Below are positions 2,742-17,374 of a stretch of DNA of 44,304 nt, in pieces. This DNA comes from an uncultured Bacteroidota bacterium (GTDB taxonomy: Bacteria; Bacteroidota; Bacteroidia; B-17B0; Aurantibacillaceae). Within the stretch, counting starts at the first letter, position 1. The number at the start of each line of letters is the position of its first letter. The notes under the pieces are model-generated. The model searched no databases. It was not told the DNA's origin and saw nothing but the letters and a program-made list of their open reading frames with translations. A program made the translations under genes and the position numbers. The DNA is taken from assembly GCA_903928655.1 (NCBI GenBank), contig CAIYSA010000111.1, positions 1 through 44,304 of the forward strand. Reading direction: 5' to 3'.

Positions 2742-5700
2742 ATGAAAAAAACAATCCTACTAAGCACAATTTTTCTAATCTCAATGGCCATCAATGCTCA
2801 AAATTGGGTTTATAAATTTCAAGATATAAATGAAAATTTTTATTCAATTCAAAGTGAATTTAATGCATATTGGAGCTCAAAGTCTTACGAGAGAGGGAAA
2901 GGCTATAAACAATTTAAGCGTTGGGAATGGATGGCAGAGCCAAGAGTTTATCCTAGTGGAGATTTAAAATATGCTTCTCGCGCAAAAGCTTACGAAGAAT
3001 TTCAAAATTATTTATTAGCCAATCCAACAGCGTTAGCAAAAATAAGTTCGGTAAGTTCAACTTCAGGAAACTGGACTGCTATCGGGCCATTTGGTTCGCC
3101 AGTTGGTGGTGATGCTGGCCGTATAACATTCATTCGTTTTATGCCGGGGTTACCAAGTACTGTTTTTGCTGGAACTGGTGCGGGTGGTTTATGGGTTTCA
3201 ACAAATAGTGGTACAAGTTGGACTACAAATACAAACTCATTATCTGTTTTAGGTTGTTCTGATTTAGCCATTAATCCTTTAAATACAAGTATTATGTATT
3301 TAGCAATGGGAGATATTGATGCTTCGGATACCAAATCAACTGGTGTTTTAAAGTCAATTGATGGTGGATTAACATGGTCAACAACTGGATTAACATTTTC
3401 TGTAAGTCTTGGTAGAACAATAGGTCGATTATTAATTAACCCATTAAATCCAAATGTTGTCTTAGCTGCTACAAGTGTTGGGATTTATCGTACAAATAAT
3501 GCTGGTGTTACTTGGAATGTTGTAAAAACAGGAAGTTATAATGATATTGAATATAAAACCACTGCTCCATTTGACACAACAAATGTTTTTGCCGTTACAG
3601 GAAGTACGTTTGTGCGTTCAGTAAATGGGGGAAATACCTTTACAACGACTGCCACAGGTTTACCAACAACTGGCGTAAATAGAATGGCCTTATCAGTAAC
3701 TGCTGCTGATCCAAATTATATTTACATTCTGTGTAGTAAATCTTCTGACAATAGTTTTGGTGGCGTCTATCGTTCGGTTGATGGAGGCGTAACATTTACA
3801 TTAATGTCTTCAACTCCAAACATTTTTGGATGGAGCACAGGAGGCACAGATACTGGTGGGCAAGGCTGGTATGATATAGCCTGTGGAGTTTCTCCTACTA
3901 ATAAAAATGAAATAATTTGTGGTGGAGTAAATTCTTGGAAGTCAATTAACGGAGGAAGCACTTGGACTTTAAATTCTCATTGGACTGGTGGAGGCGGAAA
4001 GCCTTATGTACATGCAGATTTACATGTTGTAGAATACGTTAATGGCACAACTTGCTATATGGGTACTGACGGAGGTGTGGCAAAAACAACAAATAGTGGA
4101 GTTGCTTGGACTACAATAAATGGAACAATGAATATCGCTCAATCCTATAAAATTGGCCAATCGGCACAAGCTGGAACTCCAAATTATGTTATATCTGGGC
4201 ATCAAGATAATGGAACAAATTTATGGAACGCTGGCGTTTGGACTGAAGTTTATGGTGGTGATGGCGCAGATTGTTTTGTTGATTGGAGTAGTAATGCTAC
4301 GTTAGTAGAATCATATGTTCAGGGAGATTTTAATAGATCAACAAATAGTGGAGGAACTTGGACAAGCATAATTTCAGGGATTACTGGAACAGCTGCTTGG
4401 GTTGCCCCTATTATTCAAGATCCAAATAATGCAAATATTTTTTATAGCGGATACCAACAAGTATTTAAGACATTAAATAAAGGAACTGCTTGGACTCAAA
4501 TGGGAACAATTGCTGGTTCAGGAGATGTATTAAGCATAGCTGCAGCGCCCTCAAATACTGCCACTTTATATGCATCACGATCTACAAATTTATATAAAAC
4601 TACAAATAGCGGCACAACTTGGGCGAGCATCACAACTGGCTTACCTACATCATTAGCGCAAATAACTAATATTGCAGTTGATAATTTAGATGCCACAAAT
4701 GTTTTTGTTACTTTTTCTGGATATTCTGCTGGCAATAAAGTATTTGTTACAACAAATGGTGGTTCAACTTGGACAAACATTTCAGCTGGTTTACCAAACC
4801 TCCCTGTTAATTGTATTATTTATACTAAAAATTTAAATGATGCAATTTATGTTGGAACAGATGTAGGTGTTTATTTTAAAGATGGAAGTATGACTAGCTT
4901 TATTCCTTTTATGACTAACTTACCAAATGTAATTGTAAACGATTTAGAAATTCATTATGCAACAAATAAATTAAGAGCAGGAACTTATGGAAGAGGTGTT
5001 TGGGAATCTGATTTATATTCAAATCCTTTAGCTCCTCCTAATGCTTCTTTTTCAACTGCATTTACATCAGCCTGCGTTGGCATTCCATTTGTAATTAGTG
5101 ATCAATCATCTGGTTCACCAACTGCTTGGACTTGGACACTTACTGGCGGGTCACCTGCAATATCATCTGTTAAGAATCCAACTGTTACTTATTCTTCTGT
5201 TGGAGTTTATACGGTATCATTTGTTAGTACAAATATTAATGGTAATAGTACTGTTTATACAAATACAATTTTAGTAAGCTCTCCGCCAGTTTTAGTTCTT
5301 ACAACGGCAACAGTTTGTAGTGGAATGCCAGCAACTATTTCTGCATCAGGTGCATCTACTTATTCATGGTCTGGCGGCGGCGGAACATCTGCCTCTATTT
5401 TAGTAACTCCATCGGTTACCTCTGTGTTTACCTGTACTGGTTATGTTGGAGCATGTTCATCTGTTGGTTCAACTACGGTTATCGTTGGCTCATACCCAAC
5501 CGCACCAACAATAACACAAATGGGACAAGTATTAACATCAAGTGCTGCAACAGGAAATCAATGGTATTTAAATGGTTCTCCAATTGTTGGTGCAACCGGA
5601 CAAACATATACTGTAACAGCAGATGGATATTATTCTGTTTGGGTTACTACTCTTTTAGGTTGTCAAGCATCATCTTCCTCTTATCAAGTATTATTATCTA

Positions 5701-6916: not shown

Positions 6917-7945
6917 ATGAATGAGAATTTAGACGCTAATAACGAAAAGCATACTAATACCGATAAGGATTACGAAAAAGCACTTCGTCCGATAGAATTT
7001 AACGATTTTAGTGGGCAAGAGGCTGTTGTAGATAATTTACGCATTTTTGTTTTAGCAGCTAAACAACGCGAGGAAGCTTTAGACCATGTATTATTACATG
7101 GTCCTCCGGGTTTAGGTAAAACAACTTTAGCTCATATTATTTCTAATGATTTAGGTGTCAATTTAAGAGTAACTAGTGGGCCAGTGCTTGATAAACCAGG
7201 TGATTTAGCAGGGCTTTTAACAAATTTAGAACCCTTTGATGTTTTATTTGTTGATGAAATTCATCGCTTAAGCCCTATTGTAGAAGAGTATTTATATTCT
7301 GCAATGGAAGATTATAAAATTGATATTATGATTGATAGTGGCCCAAATGCGCGCACGGTTCAAATAAAATTAAATCCATTTACATTGGTTGGTGCAACTA
7401 CTCGCAGTGGTTTATTAACAGCTCCTTTGCGTGCACGTTTCGGAATTACATCACGCTTAAATTATTATGACAGTAAAGTTTTAACTGGAATTGTTCAACG
7501 TAGTTCCGCCATTTTAGGTGTTGAAATTGCAGATGAAGCAGCGTATGAAATTGCTAGAAGAAGCCGAGGAACGCCACGTATAGCAAATGCACTTTTGCGT
7601 CGTGTAAGAGATTTTGCTCAAATAAAAGGTGATGGAACGATTGATATTGAAATTGCAACTTATGGCTTAAAAGCTTTAAACGTTGACAAAAACGGATTAG
7701 ATGAAATGGATGTTCGTATTTTATCCGCCATCATTGATAAGTTTAAAGGTGGGCCAGTTGGCATCACAACTATAAGCACAGCGGTTGGCGAAGAGGCCGG
7801 AACGATTGAAGAAGTGTATGAACCTTTTTTAATACAAGAAGGTTATTTATCGCGAACGCCACGCGGAAGAGAGGCAACAGAAAAAGCTTACAAACATTTA
7901 GGGAAATCGTTTAGAACAAGAAACGGTGGTTTGTTTGATGAATAA
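6917..7945 (+). CDS. ruvB: Holliday junction branch migration ATPase RuvB
   Basis: A 342-residue RuvB of normal length. It is the hexameric AAA+ motor that, with RuvA, drives branch migration of Holliday junctions during recombination and repair. Walker A is GPPGLGKT at 62-69 and Walker B is FVDEIHR at ~111-117. Sensor 1 (VGATTRSG), the arginine-finger region (LRARFG) and the C-terminal winged-helix DNA-binding domain ending in [13 protein letters not shown] are all present. The last codons overlap the start of queG by eight bases (ATGAATAA), which suggests translational coupling. Confidence 0.98.
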
Positions 7946-8444
7946 CAAAACAACATATTCTTCCATTATTAAACAAGAAGCCAAACGTTTAGGGTTCGAT
8001 TTTTGTGGAATTTCGAAAGCTGAATTTTTAGAAAAAGAAGCGCCAAGGCTCGAAAAATGGTTGAATGAAAAGAAGCATGGGAAAATGGAGTACATGGAAA
8101 ACCATTTTGACAAACGCTTAAATCCAACCTTATTGGTTGATGGTGCAAAATCAGTTGTTTCATTATTGTATAATTATTATCCCGAACAAAAACAACATCC
8201 AGATTCTCCAAAAATTTCTAAATATGCTTATGGTATTGATTACCATGATGTGATAAAAGATAAACTCAAAGAATTTTTGTTTACGCTTAAAGAAAAAATT
8301 GGAGATATAAACGGAAGAGCTTTTGTGGACAGTGCGCCAGTGCTTGATAAAGCGTGGGCAAAAAAAAGCGGTTTAGGTTGGATTGGAAAAAATGCAAACC
8401 TTATTAATAAAAAACAAGGGTCATTTTTTTTATTGCCGAATTAA
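7938..8444 (+). pseudogene. queG: Epoxyqueuosine reductase QueG, N-terminal part (frameshifted)
   Basis: QueG is the cobalamin- and iron-sulfur-dependent enzyme that reduces epoxyqueuosine to queuosine in tRNA anticodons. This reading frame covers the N-terminal catalytic half, including [20 protein letters not shown] and [10 protein letters not shown]. It stops at TAA 8442-8444, 13 bases after a run of eight Ts (8424-8431). One extra T would join it without loss to the downstream frame, giving about 312 residues, the usual length for the family. The ATG at 7938 overlaps the ruvB stop. A GTG at 7926 in the same frame is possible but adds only four residues. The split may be a real null mutation, a phase-variable tract, a site corrected by slippage, or a sequencing error. 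Confidence 0.85.
8424..8431 (+). other. T8 homopolymer at the queG frameshift
   Basis: Eight consecutive Ts follow the TCA codon. Nine would restore the frame TCA-TTT-TTT-TTT-ATT-GCC-GAA and hence the expected protein (GSFFFIAEL). Both flanking halves are well conserved, so the indel is recent or functionally tolerated. Confidence 0.8.
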
Positions 8445-8863
8445 TTATTGATGTTGATTTAGAATACGATGGCGCCATAAAAGATTATTGTGGCACTTGC
8501 ACAAAATGTATTGATGCTTGCCCAACATCTGCTATTGTTGAACCTTATGTGGTTGATGGTAGTAAATGCATCAGTTATTTTACTATCGAATTAAAAGAAT
8601 CCATCCCATCTGAATTTAAAAATAAAATGGATAATTGGATTTTTGGTTGTGATGTTTGCCAGGATGTTTGCCCTTGGAATAGTTTTAGCGAATTTAATAC
8701 TGAACCAAAATTTAAAAACACAACTGGCTTTTTAAATTTTAACACTGCCGATTGGCATAATTTAAGTGAAGAGGTATTTGCTTCTGTTTTTAAAGGAAGC
8801 GCTGTGAAACGCACTAAATACAATGGCTTAAAGCGTAATATTGAATTTATTACTTTGAAATAG
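8432..8863 (+). pseudogene. queG: Epoxyqueuosine reductase QueG, C-terminal part (frameshifted)
   Basis: This is the second half of QueG in the next frame, readable from ATT 8432 ([20 protein letters not shown]) to TAG 8861-8863. It contains both [4Fe-4S] cluster motifs, [12 protein letters not shown] and [11 protein letters not shown], so the cluster domain is intact and only the reading frame is broken. The first conventional start codon in this frame is GTG 8549, which would omit the first cluster. A weak hairpin, AGCC-TTA-GGCT at 8862-8872 followed by TTGATTTTT, may terminate transcription. The trailing edge of the cassette array begins about 80 bases further on. Confidence 0.85.
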
Positions 8864-8939: not shown

Positions 8940-9071
8940 GTATAACGGTTTTGGGCTTGGCGAAGGTGGCAATTTACACCACAAATGTTTATGCGGAGAA
9001 CCAAACTTTGATTAACTACAGATGTTTCTGCGAAGCACTGAACCGCCAATTTCTTGTAGGTGCTGTTAGCT
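8940..9071 (-). repeat. attC-like site A (mazEF cassette)
   Basis: 132 bases just after the mazF stop codon. On the minus strand the site opens with R'' AGCTAAC and ends with R' GTTATAC. The inner arms GGGCTTGGCGAAGGTGGC and a degenerate copy near GAACCGCCAATTT form an imperfect stem. It belongs to the short family with sites C and E, sharing ATGCGGAGAACC and a second CTGCG(G/A)AGCACTGAACCGCC block with E. R'' pairs with the cassette's own start GTTAGCTG near 9740. R' joins the queG flank rather than another cassette, so this is the last site of the array. Confidence 0.78.
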
Positions 9072-9082
9072 GACGTTTGTTT

Positions 9083-9406
9083 TTATGCTACATATGTCTC
9101 GTGAATAATTGTCTTGACTTCATCAATATCTTTTTCAGAAAGTTTATCAAGAATTTTCACAATACGTTGTCGGTCTATAGTTCTTATTTGATCAAGTACA
9201 ATCCAACCTTTTGTCTTGTTATGTTTAACAGGAACTCTTGTCGGATAACTTTTTGAATTACTTGTCATTGGAGCAATAACAATTGTCTGTAAATATTTAT
9301 TCATTTCGTTTGGAGAAAGAATAACGCAAGGGCGAGTCTTTTTCATTTCACTGCCAATTGTAGGGTCGAGATTGACCAAAACAATTTGATATTGCTTTAA
9401 GTCCAT
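9083..9406 (-). CDS. mazF: MazF/PemK-family toxin, mRNA endoribonuclease
   Basis: A 107-residue toxin of the MazF/PemK family, which cleaves single-stranded mRNA and stops growth unless held by its antitoxin. Characteristic segments are QIVLVNLDPTIGSEMKKTRP (residues ~7-26), then CVILS with the RPC arginine, IVIAPMTS (~42-49), and GWIVLDQIRTIDRQRI, the typical strand-helix. The start overlaps the antitoxin stop by ten bases, so the two are co-translated. It is the last gene of the array and its stop lies 12 bases from the attC. Toxin-antitoxin cassettes are well known in large sedentary integrons, where they are thought to stabilise the array. Confidence 0.93.
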   Translation of the reverse strand: MDLKQYQIVLVNLDPTIGSEMKKTRPCVILSPNEMNKYLQTIVIAPMTSNSKSYPTRVPVKHNKTKGWIVLDQIRTIDRQRIVKILDKLSEKDIDEVKTIIHETYVA

Positions 9407-9642
9407 TCTTCAAAATTTTCATCATTAAAAACGTCTGCCATTAGAGATTTGTCATCGCCATTTTCATGCATTTTCTTAAACGATTTTTCCCATCCCTTAC
9501 GGGCAGAAGTCTTCGGCTTTAAAATGATAAAGCCCTTTTCAAGAATCAACTCTATTGTGTCTTGAATATTATACTTTTCGATTAAGGTCTTTGAGAGTCT
9601 GATTCCCTTTGAATTACCTATTGATATTAATGAAACGTCCAT
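9397..9642 (-). CDS. mazE: MazE-like AbrB-fold antitoxin
   Basis: An 81-residue protein with an N-terminal SpoVT/AbrB swapped-hairpin DNA-binding domain (VSLISIGNSKGIRLSKTLIE at 3-22, then ILEKGFIILKP). The acidic, flexible C-terminal tail ending NDENFEEWT is the part that normally wraps and blocks the MazF dimer. It lies immediately upstream of mazF with a ten-base overlap. A promoter and a likely autoregulatory operator lie directly upstream. Family and role are clear from motif, size and partner. Confidence 0.9.
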   Translation of the reverse strand: MDVSLISIGNSKGIRLSKTLIEKYNIQDTIELILEKGFIILKPKTSARKGWEKSFKKMHENGDDKSLMADVFNDENFEEWT

Positions 9643-9658
9643 TTTATTATAATTTATA

Positions 9659-9681
9659 ATGTAATTACAAAGTTATTACAT
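9659..9681. promoter_or_regulatory. Candidate MazE operator over the -7 element
   Basis: ATGTAAT (9659-9665) and ATTACAT (9675-9681) are perfect inverted copies with a 9-base spacer that contains most of the -7 element. Antitoxins of this family usually repress their own promoter through such palindromes. The operator role is inferred from position. Confidence 0.5.
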
Positions 9682-9699
9682 AATTTTAGAAAATCCAAA
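9668..9699 (-). promoter_or_regulatory. Promoter of the mazEF cassette
   Basis: On the minus strand TTTG (9699-9696), a 20-base spacer and TAACTTTG (9675-9668) match the Bacteroidota promoter consensus TTTG-N-TAnnTTTG exactly. The mazE ATG follows 25 bases later. It lies inside the cassette, so this cassette brings its own promoter, unlike its neighbours. Confidence 0.7.
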
Positions 9700-9733
9700 T
9701 TTATTTTCGATGTATTTCGTCACAACAAATGAC

Positions 9734-9908
9734 AGCTAACGGAACGCGTGCTTGCATCAGTGCGGAAATTGAAACCGTTCAATGTCGAAATGCTAATAAC
9801 AAAGCTAACTGTTTATTAGCCATTTGCAAAGCGAAAATTAATTAATTGTCTACCGCTTTTGCAAATGCCGAAGCCGAATGCCCAAATTGAATTTAGGTGC
9901 GGTTAGGG
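9734..9908 (-). repeat. attC-like site B1 (lipoprotein cassette), degenerate arms
   Basis: 175 bases starting 11 bases after the lipoprotein stop. On the minus strand R'' is CCCTAAC and R' is GTTAGCT. The central hairpin CATTTGCAAAGCG / CGCTTTTGCAAATG is shared with B2 and D. The arms next to the R boxes hardly pair, unlike in the other sites, so its single-strand fold may be weakened. R'' matches the cassette's own start GTTAGGGGTA. Confidence 0.72.
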
Positions 9909-9918
9909 GTAGTTTGAT

Positions 9919-10296
9919 CTATTGTCTTTTATAGCCTGAAGAAGGAAAGTCTCTAATACTTATATTGCCAATTCCAATCTGGTCTTGCTTTTCGTAATAA
10001 GTCAATTGCGATTCGCCACCAGCAAAATAACCCTTATTGAAAGGTTTGTCACTAATAAAAGTTAAATAACCATTTTTGTCGAGTATGCGTCCGTAGTCAA
10101 TTTTGTCACTACCATTGTAAAGTTTATACTTTCCTTTGTAAACAATTACAAGTTTAAAATTTTCATTAGCTCCGTCAGACCAGCCACCAATCCATGTCCA
10201 CGTCCCGATAAACTTTGCATTGTCGCCAGTCAATTTTGTCTTTTTGCAGTTTGTAAAAAAACATCCTATTAGCAATAAAAAAATTATTTTTTTCAT
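9919..10296 (-). CDS. Small putative lipoprotein, cassette-borne
   Basis: A 125-residue protein starting MKKIIFLLLIGCFFTNCKK: a short hydrophobic signal with possible lipobox cysteines at 12 and 17. The CKK at 17 looks most like Bacteroidota lipoproteins. The mature part (FIGTWTWIGGWSDGANENFK, later GNISIRDFPSSGYKRQ) resembles small lipocalin-like or META-like proteins with a strand-rich core, but I do not recognise a family. The frame stays open upstream to 10371, through the neighbouring attC. I chose the ATG at 10296 because it begins the signal peptide and lies just inside the cassette boundary at 10335. Confidence 0.7.
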   Translation of the reverse strand: MKKIIFLLLIGCFFTNCKKTKLTGDNAKFIGTWTWIGGWSDGANENFKLVIVYKGKYKLYNGSDKIDYGRILDKNGYLTFISDKPFNKGYFAGGESQLTYYEKQDQIGIGNISIRDFPSSGYKRQ

Positions 10297-10329
10297 GTTG
10301 TTAATTTTATAATAGTCAATACAAATTAC

Positions 10330-10507
10330 CCCTAACGTTTTCGCGCTAAATTTCGGCTGGTTTTGAAACAATGTCTACCGAAATATTACTGACAAAGCTA
10401 ACTGCTTTTTAGACATTTGCAAAGCGAAAATAATTGTCTTTCCCGAAGGGACCGCTTTTGCAAATGCCTTATACTTCCGCCCCGCTGGAATTTAGCGTGT
10501 GTTAGGG
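10330..10507 (-). repeat. attC-like site B2 (LRR cassette)
   Basis: 178 bases starting 12 bases after the LRR gene stop. On the minus strand R'' is CCCTAAC and R' is GTTAGGG. The outer arms CGCTAAATT and AATTTAGCG pair, and the central CATTTGCAAAGCG / CGCTTTTGCAAATG hairpin matches sites B1 and D. R'' with its extension is the reverse complement of the cassette start GTTAGGGGC at 11328. Confidence 0.8.
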
Positions 10508-10518
10508 GCTGCTTTACC

Positions 10519-11313
10519 TTAAAATGTAAATCTTATGGTTTTGAATTCCGCTTTTAATTTTTCTTTTGTTGGCTTGTCAATAATGACTTTATATAGAGAA
10601 ACTTTTTTTAAATTTTTGCAGTTAGAAAGAATTGCAGGATAAACTGTTAGTGTGTTTTTGCAAAGAGCTTTACCATTAATTAAATATCCGTCACCTTCTG
10701 CATTATTAATATCAAGGTAAAGTAAATTCTTAACAAATTCAATTTGTTTTGGTATTTCAATAAATCGGTTATTAGTAAGGTCAATTTCTTTTAGGCTTAT
10801 TATTTCACTGATATTGTCTGGCAACGCAGATAGATAGTTTACAGACAAATCTAAAAACTCAAGCTGTTTCATCTTAATTATTGAGGAAGGGAGAGTTTTT
10901 AATTCGCAAGCATTAAGGGATAAATATTTTAAATTTGATAAATCGCTTAATATGTCAAAATTTAAATTTGGGAGATTGAAGATTTGCAGAAATTCTAGGT
11001 CTTTGAACACGGAGATGTCAGGAACTGGTTTCAAGTCAATCTGATACCAACGATTGTCGATTATTAATTTTCTTAGATTTTTAAACTTACCATGGTTGTC
11101 AACGAACTTTTGATAATTAAGTCCGTCTTTATCAACTGTTAAGTCAATGTAAAGCACTTGGTCTGGAGTAAGAAGAGCATTGTCAATATTTTGAAATCTT
11201 TTTGCTTTTCTATATATGTCCGAGTAGTTAATACTTTTTCCTAATGAAGAATAGTCCTGAGCAAAAATGTCTTTTGTCAGCAAGATAATTAATATGAATA
11301 TATATGTCCTCAT
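10519..11313 (-). CDS. Secreted leucine-rich-repeat protein, cassette-borne
   Basis: A 264-residue protein with an N-terminal signal peptide (MRTYIFILIILLTKDIFAQ). About six leucine-rich repeats follow, for example FKDLEFLQIFNLPNL, LSNLKYLSLNACELKTLPSS, MKQLEFLDLSVNYLSALPDN and LKEIDLTNNRFIEIPKQI. LRRs of this kind form a curved surface for protein binding. The frame remains open upstream to 11442, but that stretch is attC site C being translated. ATG 11313 is the right start: it begins the signal peptide 14 bases inside the cassette boundary. No partner is evident. Confidence 0.8.
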   Translation of the reverse strand: MRTYIFILIILLTKDIFAQDYSSLGKSINYSDIYRKAKRFQNIDNALLTPDQVLYIDLTVDKDGLNYQKFVDNHGKFKNLRKLIIDNRWYQIDLKPVPDISVFKDLEFLQIFNLPNLNFDILSDLSNLKYLSLNACELKTLPSSIIKMKQLEFLDLSVNYLSALPDNISEIISLKEIDLTNNRFIEIPKQIEFVKNLLYLDINNAEGDGYLINGKALCKNTLTVYPAILSNCKNLKKVSLYKVIIDKPTKEKLKAEFKTIRFTF

Positions 11314-11321
11314 AAAGTTGC

Positions 11322-11416
11322 CCCTAACGGTTTCGGGCTTGGCGAAGGTGGCGATTTTCACCACTAATGTTGATGCGGAGAACTGAACCGCCACTTTTGC
11401 CAAACCCGTGTTACCG
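11322..11416 (-). repeat. attC-like site C (mcrBC cassette), shortest copy
   Basis: 95 bases. On the minus strand R'' is CGGTAAC and R' is GTTAGGG. The stem pairs CGGGCTTGGCGAAGGTGGCG with the reverse complement of CCGCCACTTTTGCCAAACCC almost completely, making this the cleanest hairpin of the set. Compared with site E it lacks one internal block of about 37 bases. The mcrC stop codon TAA is part of R''. R'' matches the cassette start GTTACCGGG at 14207. Confidence 0.82.
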
Positions 11417-12784
11417 GGTCGTTGTTCTTCTTTCAAGCTCATTTAGTTCGTTTGTTAATAATCGCTTTGCTTCATTGATACTGTCCTTTTTTAATGGAAT
11501 ACCCATAACTAAAACCGTGTTTGTTACTTCGTTAATTCCATTCTTATATTTTATAGCTTTCAATTCTAATTGGTCAGATGGATAACAAAGAAACCCATAT
11601 TTAAAGTCTGTCTTACTGAAAGAAGTATAAGCCATAATTTGGTGTAAATCGTGTCTGTGGTCGTCTTTCAGAGTTTCGCTATTGTCAAACTTGTTATAAA
11701 GGTTTGATTTGTATTTAGCGTCTATGAATACTAAGAGGTTTTCCTTTTGATATATAGCGTCTGGTTCAATGTGTTTTAGTTCCCACGAATAGTGCTTAGA
11801 AGTTCGTGAGTGAAACTTGAAATTTGAAAATAATTTCCCTCCGGTCTCTTTAGCAACAGCTTTGAAAATGTGTTGAACGAATTTTTCAAAAACATCTGAG
11901 AAGTCTACTCTCCATGCCGTGCTGTCAACCAAATTAAAGTTAAGAATTTTATTAGCTTGTTCTTTACACGTTTTTACTGTTGGGCTGTCAGATGATTTGG
12001 CAATAATATTATTTGTCGCTTTAGGTTTATGGTGATACAACTTTTCTTCAATGAAACTAAGCTTTACACGGATTGTGTTTTTTATTCTTTGTGGCGTATT
12101 AGAAGAAAGTAATTCATTCTTACAAATGTCAAATACATATCGTATTTCGGCATATTCGCTATGAAACTCACTTAAAATATTTTTTCGGGTTGGAAACTTT
12201 AAACGATTTTCAATTCTGTATTCGTTGTTGATGTATTTGCTCCAATTGATTTGTCCAGAAGGTTGGCTAGATATTTTTTCGATATTATCAAACTTACGCC
12301 AAGGTCTTGATAGTAATGCTTCAAGAGAAGCAATGAATTTCACTGCCTCTAAATATAACGGTGGTCGGAAGTTTTTACCAGAAGCAAGAGGCAAGCTGTC
12401 AATAACTTCCGGGCTTATTTCTGTTCCAAGTAAATTCAGAATTTCAATATAATCTTCAAAACGGTCACGACCAGTAAACCTCGGCATTACAACAAAATCA
12501 CCTATTTGCTTTCCTGTGTCAGATGCTCTTAGAGGAATGGTACCAATAAAACTGGAAGAACGAAAAGTCAAGGAGGTATTTTGGTCAGAGCCAATAATAA
12601 ATGGTTGAACCCCGATGAATTTGAATTGCGATGAATTATAGTCTATAAACTTTTGGAGGTACTGGCCAATAATTCTTTTGTCAGCCGATTTAAACCACTT
12701 TTTTTGCAAAGCAATTCCACTTAACTGTCTTGATTGTTCAGTTAAGCAAGGCACTTCACAAAAAACATCTAATGCCTTGCTCAT
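11411..12784 (-). CDS. mcrC: McrC-like restriction endonuclease subunit
   Basis: A 457-residue McrC/LlaJI-type protein, the nuclease partner of the McrB motor in modification-dependent restriction. The C-terminal PD-(D/E)xK site is visible as EPDAIYQKENLLVFIDAKYK (~340-359): D342 with the D355-A-K357 triad. An N-terminal domain of about 300 residues precedes it, as in other McrC proteins that bind McrB. The start overlaps mcrB as ATGA (12784-12781). The stop TAA at 11413-11411 lies inside the attC R'' box, so the recombination site contributes the stop codon. The two genes form one 2.9-kb cassette. Confidence 0.9.
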   Translation of the reverse strand: MSKALDVFCEVPCLTEQSRQLSGIALQKKWFKSADKRIIGQYLQKFIDYNSSQFKFIGVQPFIIGSDQNTSLTFRSSSFIGTIPLRASDTGKQIGDFVVMPRFTGRDRFEDYIEILNLLGTEISPEVIDSLPLASGKNFRPPLYLEAVKFIASLEALLSRPWRKFDNIEKISSQPSGQINWSKYINNEYRIENRLKFPTRKNILSEFHSEYAEIRYVFDICKNELLSSNTPQRIKNTIRVKLSFIEEKLYHHKPKATNNIIAKSSDSPTVKTCKEQANKILNFNLVDSTAWRVDFSDVFEKFVQHIFKAVAKETGGKLFSNFKFHSRTSKHYSWELKHIEPDAIYQKENLLVFIDAKYKSNLYNKFDNSETLKDDHRHDLHQIMAYTSFSKTDFKYGFLCYPSDQLELKAIKYKNGINEVTNTVLVMGIPLKKDSINEAKRLLTNELNELERRTTTR

Positions 12785-14169
12785 TCAAAAAGTGATTTAT
12801 TTATTCGAATAGCGAAATAATTATTGAATTCTTCTTTAGCATTTCTAATCAACCCTTCTTGTAAATATTCTTTTATCAATGGGAATATTTCGTACTTGAT
12901 ACGGTTTGTCATTTCCTCTTCGCTGTCTGCAATAAAGTAGCCTTGGCCGGGTTGCAATGATAATTCATTACTTGAGGCGTACCAGTCGAATATTTCTTGA
13001 ATTCTTGCAAAATCATCTTTGAAGAATTGTTTTGAAATAATAGCCTTAGGTTTTAATGTGTACCAAGCAAATCGTCTACGTAACGCAAAGTCAACAACCG
13101 CCAAGCTTCTATCAGCAGTGTTCATCGTAGCGATTACAGTAAAGTTATCCGGGAGTTTGTTAATCTTGAAACTCGGAGAAATTTCAATTTCAACATTTGA
13201 TTTGTCCATTTTGTGTTCAAACAAATAGAAAATGGGTCCTAAAACATTCGAAAGATTTGCTCTGTTTATTTCGTCAATTATCAAAAGGACTTTTTCATTA
13301 TCGTGTTCTTTCGCATACTTCAAAGCCTCGGTAAAACTTCCCAAATTTTCTTTGTAGCTAAGTTCTTTGTTGTTTAAATCTGGGCGAATACCATAAATAA
13401 AATCTGAAAAACTTGTCTCTGCGTGGAACTGGGTGAAAAATGTTTTTGCTTTAATTTTTTCTGCAACTTCTTTTGCTGTTCTTGTTTTTCCAGTCCCAGG
13501 AGGTCCTTGAAGTACAATATATTTTCTTTCGTTCAAAAGATTTTTTATTTCTTCTGCTTCATCAATTGTCTCTGCCTTAAGGAAAGGTTCCAAAGCTTCT
13601 GAAATGGCTTTTCTGTGGTCTTTGTTTGAAGGCCATTCTCTAAGTTTTGCATAACCAGCTAAAAATGCAGCAATTATTTTCATGCCTTCTTCGCTTTCGG
13701 GGTCATCAACAATTTGGCAAGCTGGTAAAACTTTTGTGTAAGTCTTTATTGTGTTTTTTATGTGTTGTAAATCAAGGCTGCCAGTGATGGACTTTGGCAA
13801 ACTTGTTTCTATGTCAGAAAAATCCGATTTGCAAAACCCCTTTTCGTTAATAAGTTTAGAAAATAGTCGCCTTAGTCCGGGATAGGTCGCAAGTTCATAG
13901 TCATTTTTAAAACCACTAGAACCAATACCCAAACAAACTAACCAAGGTTGGTCTTGGTCGTTTGGAAATATAGCTAATGAAAAGTCGTGGAATGGTCCCG
14001 AAGCTTCTTCTTCTGGATGAATAAAACCAAAATATGCTCCGTTGTCTTTTAAAGCTTCTTGTCCAGTGTTGTTACGTTCAACATAAGGTTTATTAAATTC
14101 GTTGTCAGTTTTAGCACCGAACTGTTCCGCTTTCTCTTTGATGAATTGTCTAATATTTTCTATGTTCAT
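12781..14169 (-). CDS. mcrB: McrB-like AAA+ restriction motor
   Basis: A 462-residue protein. Residues ~20-130 (FGFIHPEEEASGPFHDFSLA, CLGIGSSGFKNDYELATYPG) resemble the MrcB N-terminal/DUF3578 domain that reads modified DNA. A McrB-type AAA+ GTPase domain follows with Walker A GPPGTGKT (222-229), the Walker B signature IIDEINRAN (297-305) and the sensor NTADRSL. McrB translocates on DNA and activates McrC for cutting, giving defence against phages with modified genomes. The DUF3578-like reader differs from the E. coli McrB domain, so the base recognised is unknown. The gene starts 38 bases inside the cassette and shows no own promoter. Confidence 0.9.
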   Translation of the reverse strand: MNIENIRQFIKEKAEQFGAKTDNEFNKPYVERNNTGQEALKDNGAYFGFIHPEEEASGPFHDFSLAIFPNDQDQPWLVCLGIGSSGFKNDYELATYPGLRRLFSKLINEKGFCKSDFSDIETSLPKSITGSLDLQHIKNTIKTYTKVLPACQIVDDPESEEGMKIIAAFLAGYAKLREWPSNKDHRKAISEALEPFLKAETIDEAEEIKNLLNERKYIVLQGPPGTGKTRTAKEVAEKIKAKTFFTQFHAETSFSDFIYGIRPDLNNKELSYKENLGSFTEALKYAKEHDNEKVLLIIDEINRANLSNVLGPIFYLFEHKMDKSNVEIEISPSFKINKLPDNFTVIATMNTADRSLAVVDFALRRRFAWYTLKPKAIISKQFFKDDFARIQEIFDWYASSNELSLQPGQGYFIADSEEEMTNRIKYEIFPLIKEYLQEGLIRNAKEEFNNYFAIRINKSLFE

Positions 14170-14200
14170 ATTATTTGTTTGAGTGTCGTTTTACAATGCC

Positions 14201-14378
14201 CGGTAACGTTTTCGCGCTAAGCAACGGTTTGATTTGAAACCGTGTCCTGCCGAAATGGTATTAACAAAGATAACTGCTTATTGGACTTTTGCAAAGCGAA
14301 AATAATTGTCCCCGCGAAGCGACTGCTTTTGCAAAAGCTTTGATGTCTGCCAAACTGTTTGCTTAGTGTGTGTTAGGC
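14201..14378 (-). repeat. attC-like site D (serine hydrolase cassette)
   Basis: 178 bases starting nine bases after the hydrolase stop. On the minus strand R'' is GCCTAAC and R' is GTTACCG. The outer arms GCTAAGCAACGGTTTG and CAAACTGTTTGCTTAG pair with few mismatches, and the inner hairpin is CTTTTGCAAAGCG / TGCTTTTGCAAAAG. It shares its core with B1 and B2. R'' plus extension (CCGCCTAAC) matches the cassette start GTTAGGCGG at 15764. Confidence 0.82.
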
Positions 14379-14387
14379 GGTCGTGCT

Positions 14388-15728
14388 TTACTCTCTCTTT
14401 TTGAGTTGCACTTTGAGTCCATATATTAGTCGCCATAAATTTATAACTTTACCTTTATTGTCCAGTTCAAATTCAATTTGTTTATCAGTGCCATTTGCAT
14501 AATAAAATCTCGTAGGAGATTCAGCTTTAATTTCAATATCTTCTACGCCATCAACGTAAACGTATAGTTTGTCGTTTTTTTCTATGATTTTCAGTTTACT
14601 TGGGAAGCCAATAAACATTCCTTCATATTGACCTGTGTAATTATGAAAATTTTTGGAATTTAGTTTAATCTCAGTGTGAATTTTAGGCGTATTAACTTGG
14701 CCACCTAAAATGATAGTAGCCAGAGCAAATGAGATAGATGGGCTTTGGGATGCATTGTTGGATAAAACAATTACGCAAGAACTGTCGGATGGAATTCTCA
14801 AGAACGAATTTGAAAAACCTGCACCGCTTCCTGAATGTTGAATGCAGGTCTTATTTTCTATCGGTATACAAATTACTCCATATCCATAGTTTTCTTTTAC
14901 CGGTGTATACATTCTAATTTTTGAGCCATTTGAAAGAATGTCGTTACCAAGTAATGCATTATCCCATTTGTTCAAATCTTCAACTGTAGAAAAAATGTCA
15001 CCAGTTCCGAATGTATTTGATACCCTTTCCGTTTCAGCTGAAATATATTTTCCTTCAGAAAACAAATAGCTTTTTGCTCTTTTCAACAATATAGTGTCAG
15101 GTGTATCAACACCTGTGTTAATCATACCAGACTTATTAAAAATATGGTCTTTTAAGAAGAAGCTTCTATTTTGCTTGGTAACCATTTCAACGATGTATGC
15201 TAAAAGGTAATAATTTGAACTACTGTATTTATAGCCTGTTCCTGGTTCAAAGTCAAATGGTTTTGTTTTGAGAATAGATATGATTGAATCTTTGGAAATA
15301 TTTAGTGCGTAAAGCCAATCATAATATTGGGGAAGTTCAGTATAATCAGTTATTCCAGAAGTGTGAGTGAGCATCATATGAATTGTGACTTTTTCACTGT
15401 TTGGAAAATCAGGAAGATACTTGTACAGTTTATCGTTTACATTTAGTTTCCCTAATTCATCAAGCTGCAAGATTGATGTCGCCGTAAATTGCTTTGTTAT
15501 TGAGCATAAACTATATTTAGTGTCTGTTGTGTTAGGAATGTTCCATTCTCTGTCTGCCAGACTATAAGCTTTTTTGAGAACTATTTTATTGTGAGCTTTA
15601 ACTAGAACAACTCCAGAAAAATTATAAATGTCTGCTTGTGCGTTCATATACTCGTCAAGCTGCATAGAGATATTTTTCTGTCCGAGTATTATTGTTGGAG
15701 CAAGAAAGAGTAATATAATATATTTCAT
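14388..15728 (-). CDS. Exported serine hydrolase of the class C beta-lactamase / DD-peptidase superfamily, cassette-borne
   Basis: A 446-residue protein beginning with a signal peptide (MKYIILLFLAPTIILGQ). The beta-lactamase-fold domain shows the nucleophile motif SITK (S-x-x-K), a tyrosine motif in YKYSSSNYYLL, and HSGSG in place of KTG. A C-terminal strand-rich DUF3471-like domain (YTGQYEGMFIGFPSKLKIIE onward) follows. Such proteins are usually peptidases or esterases, so drug resistance should not be assumed. The frame is open upstream to 15926 through attC site E. ATG 15728 is preferred because it begins the signal peptide and lies inside the cassette. Confidence 0.85.
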   Translation of the reverse strand: MKYIILLFLAPTIILGQKNISMQLDEYMNAQADIYNFSGVVLVKAHNKIVLKKAYSLADREWNIPNTTDTKYSLCSITKQFTATSILQLDELGKLNVNDKLYKYLPDFPNSEKVTIHMMLTHTSGITDYTELPQYYDWLYALNISKDSIISILKTKPFDFEPGTGYKYSSSNYYLLAYIVEMVTKQNRSFFLKDHIFNKSGMINTGVDTPDTILLKRAKSYLFSEGKYISAETERVSNTFGTGDIFSTVEDLNKWDNALLGNDILSNGSKIRMYTPVKENYGYGVICIPIENKTCIQHSGSGAGFSNSFLRIPSDSSCVIVLSNNASQSPSISFALATIILGGQVNTPKIHTEIKLNSKNFHNYTGQYEGMFIGFPSKLKIIEKNDKLYVYVDGVEDIEIKAESPTRFYYANGTDKQIEFELDNKGKVINLWRLIYGLKVQLKKRE

Positions 15729-15757
15729 AATGTCTATTAGTATTTGTCTAGCATGCC

Positions 15758-15889
15758 GCCTAACGTTTTCGGGCTTGGCGAAGGTGGCGATTTTCACCAC
15801 AAATGTTGATGCGGAGAACCAAAGTTTGATAAACCAAAAATGTGTCTGCGGAGCACTGAACCGCCACTTTTGCCAAACCCGTGTTATAG
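15758..15889 (-). repeat. attC-like site E (HNH-HIT cassette)
   Basis: 132 bases, beginning seven bases after the HIT gene stop. On the minus strand R'' is CTATAAC and R' is GTTAGGC, a full match to the integron consensus GTTRRRY. The arms CGGGCTTGGCGAAGGTGGCG and CCGCCACTTTTGCCAAACCC pair along about 20 bases with few mismatches. R'' and its flank match the cassette start at 17309 over 14 of 15 bases (GTTATAGCAC then TTTT), the longest match of the set. Confidence 0.85.
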
Positions 15890-15895
15890 CACGTT

Positions 15896-16264
15896 TTATT
15901 GGTAGTATCCTTTTCCATCTATACAATGTCTTATACCACCTCGTGGGTTTTCCATGTCGCCTTTATACCTTGGTATTAAATGACAATGAAAGTGAAATAC
16001 TGTCTGACCAGCAGATTCTCCGCAATTCATGCCAATATTATAACCATCAGGTTTGTGTTCTTTTTCGATGATACTTTTTGCTAATTCAATAGTAACATTC
16101 AAGTCGTTTTTTTCTTTTTCAGAAAGTTCAAAATAATCTTTTCTTAAAATGTTGCTTATTATTAAAAGATGTCCTGGCGAAACAGGAAAAGCATCTTTAA
16201 TAATAAAAAATGATTCGTTTTTATAAATTATTCTATCTGACGGTATTTCTGTAAAGTCTTTCAT
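15896..16264 (-). CDS. HIT-family nucleotide hydrolase/transferase
   Basis: A 122-residue HIT-family protein with the histidine triad HFHCHLIP at residues 91-98 and the preceding helix region GYNIGMNCGESAGQTVFHFH. HIT proteins hydrolyse or transfer nucleoside monophosphates through the central histidine. The start codon overlaps the stop of the HNH gene by one base (TAATG), so the two are translationally coupled and share one cassette. Housekeeping HIT proteins are normally encoded alone; the fixed link to a nuclease points to a joint function, possibly in defence. That role is inference. Confidence 0.9.
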   Translation of the reverse strand: MKDFTEIPSDRIIYKNESFFIIKDAFPVSPGHLLIISNILRKDYFELSEKEKNDLNVTIELAKSIIEKEHKPDGYNIGMNCGESAGQTVFHFHCHLIPRYKGDMENPRGGIRHCIDGKGYYQ

Positions 16265-17292
16265 TAAAATGTTCCTATTAATTCTATTTCAGGTTTCCAT
16301 TGTTGAATTGAATGTGTCAAAGCTAAATTATATTGGGCTTCCAAAAATCTTCTTCTAATTTCTTTTGTCAAACCTGTCTGATTTATAATAGTTTCTGATA
16401 ACGGATGTTTGCTTTCAATGTAAAATTCGTTTCGGTTAAACAGTCTATGAAGAAAACGTTTTTCTGGAATTCTTGCTTTCTTATGTAAATTGATACTGCT
16501 GTCCGCCAGAACTAAATTCCATACTCCATTGATGTTAGCGCCAGTTTGTGAATGAGCTAACTTATTTACATGCGGCAAAAAATGATCAACTTCACAAATA
16601 TTGATATCATTTTTATTAATTGAAATGTCTTGATATGAATAAAAGCATTTGCCTTTTTGATAACCATTTAATGAATCTCGGACAGAAGTAATGTCAATGC
16701 GTCTCATTAAATTACTCTCAATAAAAAAAAGTGATTTACTCTCATCATACTTTACTTCAAGTAGATTTGGATTTATTTGCAAGTTCCAAGCTGTTTCAAC
16801 TAAGTTCCATCTAGCTTCTACTTCTTGTTCCAAATTTCTATACTGGAATAATTCTTTAATCTTTAATAAATTGTCTGTAACTACTATTTCTTTTTTGCCT
16901 TGACTATAATTTTTTTCATAAAATGCATTAGGTATTGTTCCACCATTAACGTTTTGGAAAGCGTCTACCACATTAACAAAACCATATTTTTCGGTTAAAC
17001 CGTAAAGGTCTTCTTTTGTAATTTTTTCATTGATGTAGCTTCTGCAACCTTCTAAAAACTTACTCGAACCGGCATTGCCTTGTTTGTCACTTTTTTTTAA
17101 ATGCTCCACTATTGAGTTTGCGAATGGTATTGCTAATTCATCAAGCGATATTTTTGTTTTTTCTTGTTCGATTAATCCGAGTAATGATTTAGCAAATGCA
17201 AATTTGTATGTCGCTGAGTTCTTTCCAAATAGAATAATAGCTCTCCATTGAGATTCTAATGAGGGGTCGTTTATTTGGAATTGTGTTGTCAT
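16264..17292 (-). CDS. HNH endonuclease with an uncharacterised N-terminal domain
   Basis: A 342-residue protein. The HNH metal finger lies at about 216-275: KGKCFYSYQDI, then CEVDHFLPH with the catalytic D236-H237 pair, then NGVWNLVLADSSINLHKK supplying the conserved Asn and final His. The first ~200 residues, with RAIILFGKNSATYKFAFAKS, are helical and I cannot assign them. It is the first gene of the array and starts 17 bases inside the first cassette, so its promoter must lie upstream of the array. It is coupled to the HIT gene. DNA or RNA cleavage is likely, target unknown. Confidence 0.83.
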   Translation of the reverse strand: MTTQFQINDPSLESQWRAIILFGKNSATYKFAFAKSLLGLIEQEKTKISLDELAIPFANSIVEHLKKSDKQGNAGSSKFLEGCRSYINEKITKEDLYGLTEKYGFVNVVDAFQNVNGGTIPNAFYEKNYSQGKKEIVVTDNLLKIKELFQYRNLEQEVEARWNLVETAWNLQINPNLLEVKYDESKSLFFIESNLMRRIDITSVRDSLNGYQKGKCFYSYQDISINKNDINICEVDHFLPHVNKLAHSQTGANINGVWNLVLADSSINLHKKARIPEKRFLHRLFNRNEFYIESKHPLSETIINQTGLTKEIRRRFLEAQYNLALTHSIQQWKPEIELIGTF

Positions 17293-17302
17293 TTAAAATG
17301 TG

Positions 17303-17374
17303 CTATAACTTATCGCTAAGCGCTATAAATATACAAAACATAGTCCAATCATACACCCGTATGTTCGCTAAGCG
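17303..17374 (-). other. Leading end of the cassette array, candidate attI-like region
   Basis: CTATAAC at 17303-17309 is the junction of the first cassette (minus strand G^TTATAG). Beyond it, two exact copies of CGCTAAGCG (17314-17322 and 17366-17374) flank the hairpin CATAC-ACCC-GTATG (17350-17363). Integron attI sites have a crossover box plus nearby direct repeats, so this could be the insertion site. It could also be a decayed attC. No integrase gene adjoins it; the neighbouring gene encodes a peptidase. Confidence 0.4.

Follow-up and report, generated by a model that had tools for sequence, protein, structure and literature searches.

What does a small HNH nuclease do for a bacterium when its gene is coupled to that of a HIT-family enzyme, and how did the two genes come to lie where they do? 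The question arises from a stretch of 44,304 nucleotides (the window, by which we mean the whole stretch of DNA analyzed), which is one entire contig (C111) of a fragmented Bacteroidota genome, a 96% complete MAG of 3.25 Mb in 529 contigs. The two genes are:

16264..17292, minus strand: HNH nuclease, 342 aa, with an N-terminal domain (about residues 1-195) and a Cas9-type HNH domain (about residues 200-285)
15896..16264, minus strand: HIT-family nucleotidyl hydrolase/transferase, 122 aa, with a conserved C-terminal tail, GDMxxPRGGVRxxIxxKxxY

Both frames are intact and complete. The stop codon of the HNH gene (TAA, 16266-16264) and the start codon of the HIT gene (ATG, 16264-16262) have one base in common (TAATG), as a preliminary description of this DNA had noted, and because about 70 homologous loci include 40 with exactly this TAATG junction, the overlap is not due to chance. 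The reading that we tentatively favor, with slightly less than even confidence, is that the pair is a mobile two-gene module of an undescribed, probably anti-invader system in which the partner controls an HNH effector.

As far as can be read from their sequences, the active sites of both proteins are intact. In the HNH protein, D236, H237, N259 and K271 are invariant in 89/89 homologues and N268 is kept in 88/89; these residues (D-H, N, N, K) align with the catalytic set of the Cas9 HNH domain, and the HNH_4-type set (D-H, N, N/H) is present, with a score against Pfam HNH_4 that is barely above the cut-off (23.6 bits; cut-off 22). The HIT protein scores far above the Pfam HIT cut-off (76.2 bits; cut-off 21.5) and below every NCBIfam cut-off. 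Its residues H32, N76, Q87, H91, H93 and H95 are invariant in 29 homologues, and it has the H-x-H-x-H-xx triad together with the upstream His and the Asn that characterize the HIT superfamily. The C-terminal tail is unusual and mostly invariant.

The HNH protein was modeled confidently by AF2 (pLDDT 86.7), and a fold search with the model against PDB and viral libraries returned no match at E <= 0.001. Only the Cas9 HNH domain stood out, the isolated Cas9 HNH domain 6o56 being among the structural matches; matches to ROQ and winged-helix-like folds, at E about 1 or worse, were not trusted. Since solved and viral structures match nothing beyond the HNH core, the N-terminal domain of ~200 residues is still without an assignment, as it was in the preliminary description.

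A profile-guided scan of 84,980 genomes yielded 351 HNH relatives, and the best 80 of these were taken on. Seventy-two of the 80 loci are from Bacteroidota, two of them ending inside or just after the HNH gene, and in 68 of the 70 with enough flank a HIT gene adjoins the HNH gene downstream (a count that includes three fusions, and four loci of Sphingobacterium in which one gene intervenes); since the sample consists of the nearest 80 among the 351, its partner frequencies are biased towards Bacteroidota. This recurrence rules out a chance adjacency. The pairing extends to distant relatives: an HNH protein at about 28-30% identity (L008) still has a HIT neighbor, as do the distant loci L149 and L151, and on betaproteobacterial plasmids of Aromatoleum and Polaromonas the order is reversed, with HIT followed by a distant HNH protein (40-41 bits to the profile). 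Across 71 loci the identity matrices of the HNH and HIT proteins are correlated (r 0.52, against a maximum of 0.39 in 2000 permutations). By their arrangement in these genomes, the HNH gene and a downstream HIT gene are kept together, with frames that usually overlap or abut, across Bacteroidota and beyond. The HNH gene is patchily distributed (5/395 phylum genomes and 7/395 class genomes sampled) and is therefore not housekeeping; no HNH homologue was found in a phage collection. The preliminary description had named a lack of recurrence, or recurrence in housekeeping contexts only, as what would speak against its idea of a defence cassette; the pair is instead widespread and found in accessory contexts.

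In the four Sphingobacterium loci (L053, L061, L064 and L070), the extra gene between HNH and HIT encodes ~200 aa with a signal-peptide-like start, and in L053 and L070 a Nudix-like gene lies directly upstream.

The surroundings of the pair in the window resolve into an integron-type array:

8,940-17,309: six-cassette integron-type array, without an integrase
15764..17308, minus strand: HNH-HIT gene cassette of integron type, with crossover between G and TT at 17309/17308 and 15764/15763
15758..15892, minus strand: attC of the HNH-HIT cassette, R''/L''/L'/R' layout, hairpin z -2.75 on the plus strand, repeat family D1
14388..15728, minus strand: PF00144 serine hydrolase cassette, Pfam Beta-lactamase 159 bits, likely ATG at 15728, longest ORF to 15926
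14201..14381, minus strand: attC of the serine hydrolase (beta-lactamase family) cassette, 9-nt own-end match, repeat family D5/D2
12781..14169, minus strand: McrB-like AAA+ GTPase/ATPase, first gene of the McrBC cassette, AAA_5 79.8 bits, McrB-like 118 bits (below cut-off)
11411..12784, minus strand: McrC-like protein, second gene of the McrBC cassette, PRK09736 McrC 19.7 bits only (below cut-off)
11322..11419, minus strand: attC of the McrBC cassette, 9-nt own-end match, hairpin z -3.94
10330..10510, minus strand: attC of the LRR-protein cassette, 9-nt own-end match
9734..9911, minus strand: attC of the 150-aa-protein cassette, 10-nt own-end match
9083..9642, minus strand: MazE-like/PemK-MazF toxin-antitoxin cassette, PemK 109 bits, MazE 16.6 bits
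8940..9074, minus strand: last attC (MazEF cassette) and end of the array, 8-nt own-end match, repeat family D1

Read on the minus strand, the intergenic repeats (families D1, D2 and D5) have the form of attC sites, with an R'' box (..TAAC), an imperfect hairpin and an R' box (GTTA...). In a circularized cassette, the R'' box must pair with the first bases of the same cassette. This is what we see: in 6/6 cassettes the 5' end and the R'' box of the same cassette are complementary over 8-10 nt, although the two lie up to 3 kb apart. The 5' end of the HNH-HIT cassette, GTTATAGCAC, is the exact reverse complement of its own R'' box, GTGCTATAAC, over 10 nt and at a distance of 1.4 kb. The physically adjoining R' box, which belongs to the next cassette, matches over 4-5 nt, and over 8 nt once, where both neighbors start with GTTAGGGG. 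The hairpins of the HNH-HIT attC (on the plus strand) and the McrBC attC beat shuffles, whereas that of the MazEF attC is no better than shuffles (z -0.2). When a loosely set cassette finder was applied to shuffled sequence, it reported 0.45 false cassettes per 44 kb; it also recovered only some of the true ones.

The attC architecture, the complementarity of each R'' to its own 5' end and the common direction of all cassettes are those of integron cassettes and CALIN elements; the attC bodies of 98-181 nt, and the absence of any integrase above the IntI cut-off (TIGR02249) from the genome (529 contigs, 96% complete), set this array apart, and because of that absence it is classed as CALIN-like. 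HNH-HIT is the first cassette. McrBC and MazEF are its neighbors, as the preliminary description had it, in the form of a McrB-like AAA+ protein with a weak McrC-like partner and a PemK/MazF toxin paired with a MazE-like protein. The further claim that all of these travel as one large cassette does not hold: attC boundaries divide them into separate cassettes, with the serine hydrolase and others in between.

At the left flank of the array (window 7926-8863), the reading frame for a QueG epoxyqueuosine reductase is broken into two ORFs that lie in different frames, a pseudogene or an assembly error. The window's attC bodies recur on contigs C74, C484, C523, C262 and C150 of the same genome (L135, L141-L144), one of them near a contig end.

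The ends of the cassette allow its movement to be followed. The HNH-HIT cassette recurs in several other Bacteroidota. A Chitinophagaceae locus (L024) and a Runella locus (L025), at 97% protein identity, have the same cassette ends and other attC bodies. Two further loci (L029 and L031) also combine the same HNH-HIT cassette ends with other attC bodies, and L026 has a degenerate version of these ends; they are absent from the remaining homologues viewed with flanks (such as L027, L028, L030 and L032). An attC-like sequence precedes the cassette in L024, so there the cassette is internal, while in the window it is first. Certain HNH relatives are plasmid-borne. Judged by these comparisons, HNH-HIT is a mobile pair that passes from one bacterium to another, in the window in the form of an integron cassette. 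A search for the empty site in six same-genus relatives found the M1 peptidase flank, and the DNA downstream of it was unlike the window's left flank, which leaves the empty site undemonstrated in these six.

Elsewhere in the window's genus, tyrosine recombinases of 378-538 aa adjoin attC sites (L176 9792-11408, L174 894-2510, L178 8414-9550). They score 110-142 bits against the IntI profile, below its cut-off of 265; control genomes gave no match at 1e-30. In L176, with attC sites at 2177-2349, 4603-4777 and 7471-7655, three cassettes with self-complementary ends begin about 190 bp past the recombinase gene. The recombinase is a candidate divergent Bacteroidota integron integrase, with no match in the window's own genome. 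Integron-type arrays have been little reported in Bacteroidota (PMC9024848, PMC9668308).

The company that the pair keeps points to defence. At 1e-10, the 140 nearest neighbor proteins of the homologues matched 263 PADLOC models, and 137 control proteins, taken from 20 arbitrary regions in only four Bacteroidota genomes, matched 14, a contrast that gives direction and not size because models were counted with redundancy and not as genes. The neighbor models include restriction enzymes and methylases, Druantia, Wadjet (JetA), Zorya and PtuB, and restriction genes, including HsdRMS, lie beside plasmid copies in Hymenobacter, Exiguobacterium and Acinetobacter. The preliminary description had proposed to look for such enrichment near known defence genes and had called the pair a candidate defence system; its recurrence, its accessory contexts and the PADLOC enrichment all favor that view, from which the single cassette with McrBC and MazEF has to be removed. 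From its neighborhood, we infer that the probable role of HNH-HIT is to guard its host against phages or other mobile DNA.

A different view of the same neighborhood is that the pair is an integron passenger active in nucleotide metabolism or DNA processing, lying beside defence genes only since arrays and islands gather mobile genes. The array does include cargo with no known defence role (the serine hydrolase and the LRR protein), and MazG-like, Nudix and NTP pyrophosphohydrolase neighbors recur among the homologues. Given the enrichment of PADLOC models, the intact nuclease site and the presence of a methyltransferase version (below) on phage-like contigs, we consider this rather improbable.

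If HNH-HIT is a defence module, to which system does it belong? PADLOC (2023) has no model that fits HNH plus HIT as a system, only weak PtuB and ThsC matches; PADLOC, Pfam and NCBIfam hold no full-length model for the HNH protein; and no description of an HNH plus HIT defence system was found in the open full-text literature, most subscription journals lying outside the search. The preliminary description knew of no system of this composition either, and provisionally we regard the pair as undescribed so far.

The best PADLOC name for the HNH protein is PtuB, the HNH partner of the PtuA ATPase in Septu, or retron-associated HNH; the HNH core is similar. Singly scanned HNH proteins score 17-26 bits against PtuB, over the HNH region only (the window's protein 17 bits over 48 residues; across the alignment, the best member E 2e-9), and their N-terminal domain differs. 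In the window the neighbor is HIT and not PtuA, and PtuA is not among the 25 listed of the 263 PADLOC models matched by the 140 neighbor proteins. With a PtuB match that is not full-length and no adjoining PtuA, membership in Septu (PtuAB) was rejected. The HNH subtype (HNH_4) and the aligned catalytic D-H, N, N and K are shared with Cas9, but a protein of 342 aa without RuvC, REC or guide RNA machinery, with no significant PDB match elsewhere and nothing in Rfam (E<=1) to match 8.8-17.5 kb, is not a Cas9 or part of a type II CRISPR system. In type II Thoeris, the HIT-domain protein ThsC is an extra gene of the defence system (PMC8565338), and the HIT proteins score 30-49 bits to the ThsC model. 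HNH-HIT has neither ThsA nor ThsB nearby and its partner is an HNH nuclease; no TIR, SIR2 or ThsA-like protein lies beside the pair in the window, and Thoeris type II was also rejected.

Outside Bacteroidota, the usual partner of the HNH protein is a small SAM-methyltransferase in place of HIT: in Bacillota, Treponema, Acinetobacter, Roseomonas and phage-like contigs, a ~200-aa protein of Methyltransf_11/25 type adjoins it. In three Bacteroidota loci (L076, L085 and L093), HNH is followed by a fused gene that encodes an N-terminal methyltransferase and a C-terminal HIT domain (a structure model of the fusion, at pLDDT 58, was not used). On the HNH tree the partner labels are clustered, with the fusion at two places. 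Four candidate zinc cysteines are kept in 10/10 methyltransferase-neighbored HNH proteins on the tree, and the second is lost (Ser/Thr) in 67/68 typical HIT-partnered ones, a pattern that follows clades and is inseparable from descent.

The methyltransferase partner raises the question of a restriction-modification-like system, in which the partner modifies or deprotects DNA and HNH then cuts only foreign DNA. Besides the partner itself, this gains something from the fusions in L076 and L085, whose N-terminus matches the first about 90 positions of TIGR04096, a DNA phosphorothioation-associated methyltransferase, at 64-70 bits, far below the cut-off of 150. However, the methyltransferases match Methyltransf_11/25-type small-molecule families, and, as read, they have no NPPY/DPPY or PCQ motif of DNA methyltransferases past motif I; as DNA-methylase motifs are not recognizable, classical restriction-modification is disfavored. 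The window's pair, like most in Bacteroidota, has HIT and no methyltransferase, and solo HNH genes occur. Restriction-modification membership was rejected, and the looser version is in our view very unlikely.

Solo HNH genes, with neither HIT nor methyltransferase adjacent, are found in the cyanobacteria Nostoc and Calothrix, in Exiguobacterium, in Bacillus (L100) and in Hymenobacter (L086), so a partner is not strictly required; conversely, the same HIT subfamily occurs without HNH beside it in L128, L129 and L131. The solo genes argue against HIT as an obligatory antidote and bear on a toxin-antitoxin reading, in which HNH would be a DNA-damaging toxin, the HIT enzyme would neutralize HNH or its product, and the pair would stabilize the array as MazEF does. 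Stabilizing toxin-antitoxin cassettes are typical of integrons, the two genes are small and coupled, and this array also has a MazEF cassette. Such cassettes normally bring their own promoter, for which there is no room here, the 5' leader of the HNH-HIT cassette being only about 16 nt (17308 to 17293); moreover, the usual order is effector first and partner second, and the partner is an active-site-complete enzyme, exchangeable with a methyltransferase. We regard addiction as unlikely.

HIT enzymes hydrolyze AMP-lysine and AMP-DNA conjugates, which suggests a further role for the partner: HNH would nick, and an aprataxin- or HINT-like HIT would remove AMP from 5'-adenylylated ends or ligase-AMP, either mending abortive ligations of the host or stopping an invader from re-sealing nicks. 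The intact HIT active site, and closest solved relatives that include Ap4A phosphorylase, FHIT and HinT, would fit. Replacement by a methyltransferase is left unexplained, however, the 122-aa protein has no aprataxin-like zinc finger or DNA-binding extension, and the patchy distribution speaks against core repair; such end chemistry seems quite improbable.

We thus return to a module in which the partner controls the nuclease. Its N-terminal domain may recognize a target or trigger, the HNH domain would be the effector that nicks or cuts DNA, and HIT, conjecturally, would hydrolyze a nucleotide ligand or adduct (an NMP conjugate) and so set nuclease activity. In other branches a SAM-methyltransferase, alone or fused to HIT, fills the same place; what occupies the partner slot therefore appears to be an enzyme for the chemical editing of a regulator or substrate of nucleotide type, and not a DNA-modification methylase. 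No signal-making enzyme is present in the operon. Control of the nuclease by HIT through nucleotide chemistry is conjecture, and the suggestion of the preliminary description, that HIT may make, remove or sense a nucleotide tied to control of the nuclease, is compatible with a methyltransferase that replaces, or is fused to, HIT. A bolder proposal, possible but doubtful, is a new defence family built on one HNH core and an exchangeable slot (HIT, SAM-methyltransferase or their fusion). Whether the nuclease fires would then depend on a nucleotide mark that the partner sets or takes away, be it on a regulator, the nuclease or nucleic acid ends, and the family would have spread in Bacteroidota partly as an integron cassette.

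Should the pair indeed act in defence, the known systems would be joined by a small nuclease-based one whose regulator is unusual. To our knowledge, HIT enzymes are ubiquitous and their physiological substrate is rarely known; the exchange with a methyltransferase and the natural fusion of the two make a shared substrate a testable question. Integron-type cassettes would also be carrying a candidate defence module in Bacteroidota, a phylum in which integrons have hardly been reported.

Some further neighbors of the HNH and HIT genes deserve mention. A ~150-aa Pfam Phage_L5_gp82 protein lies beside the solo HNH gene in cyanobacterial loci (L017 4395-4853, L018 and L019), and a protein that by eye is related to it has a member of the same HIT subfamily as its neighbor in Paraburkholderia (L131 4390-4848). 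A MazG-like NTP pyrophosphohydrolase, possibly a third type of partner, is encoded upstream of HNH in Rhodococcus, Bacillus and Lysinibacillus (L023, L100 and L021). In Streptomyces phage phiSASD1, gp4 (L132 2971-3303) is a HIT protein near the subfamily (129 bits to the profile), beside an AANH-like (PP-loop) protein and without HNH. Finally, on a phage-like contig (L012 4215-6628), an HNH-methyltransferase pair follows an HTH-type gene on the strand opposite the surrounding phage-type genes, in the manner of a moron.
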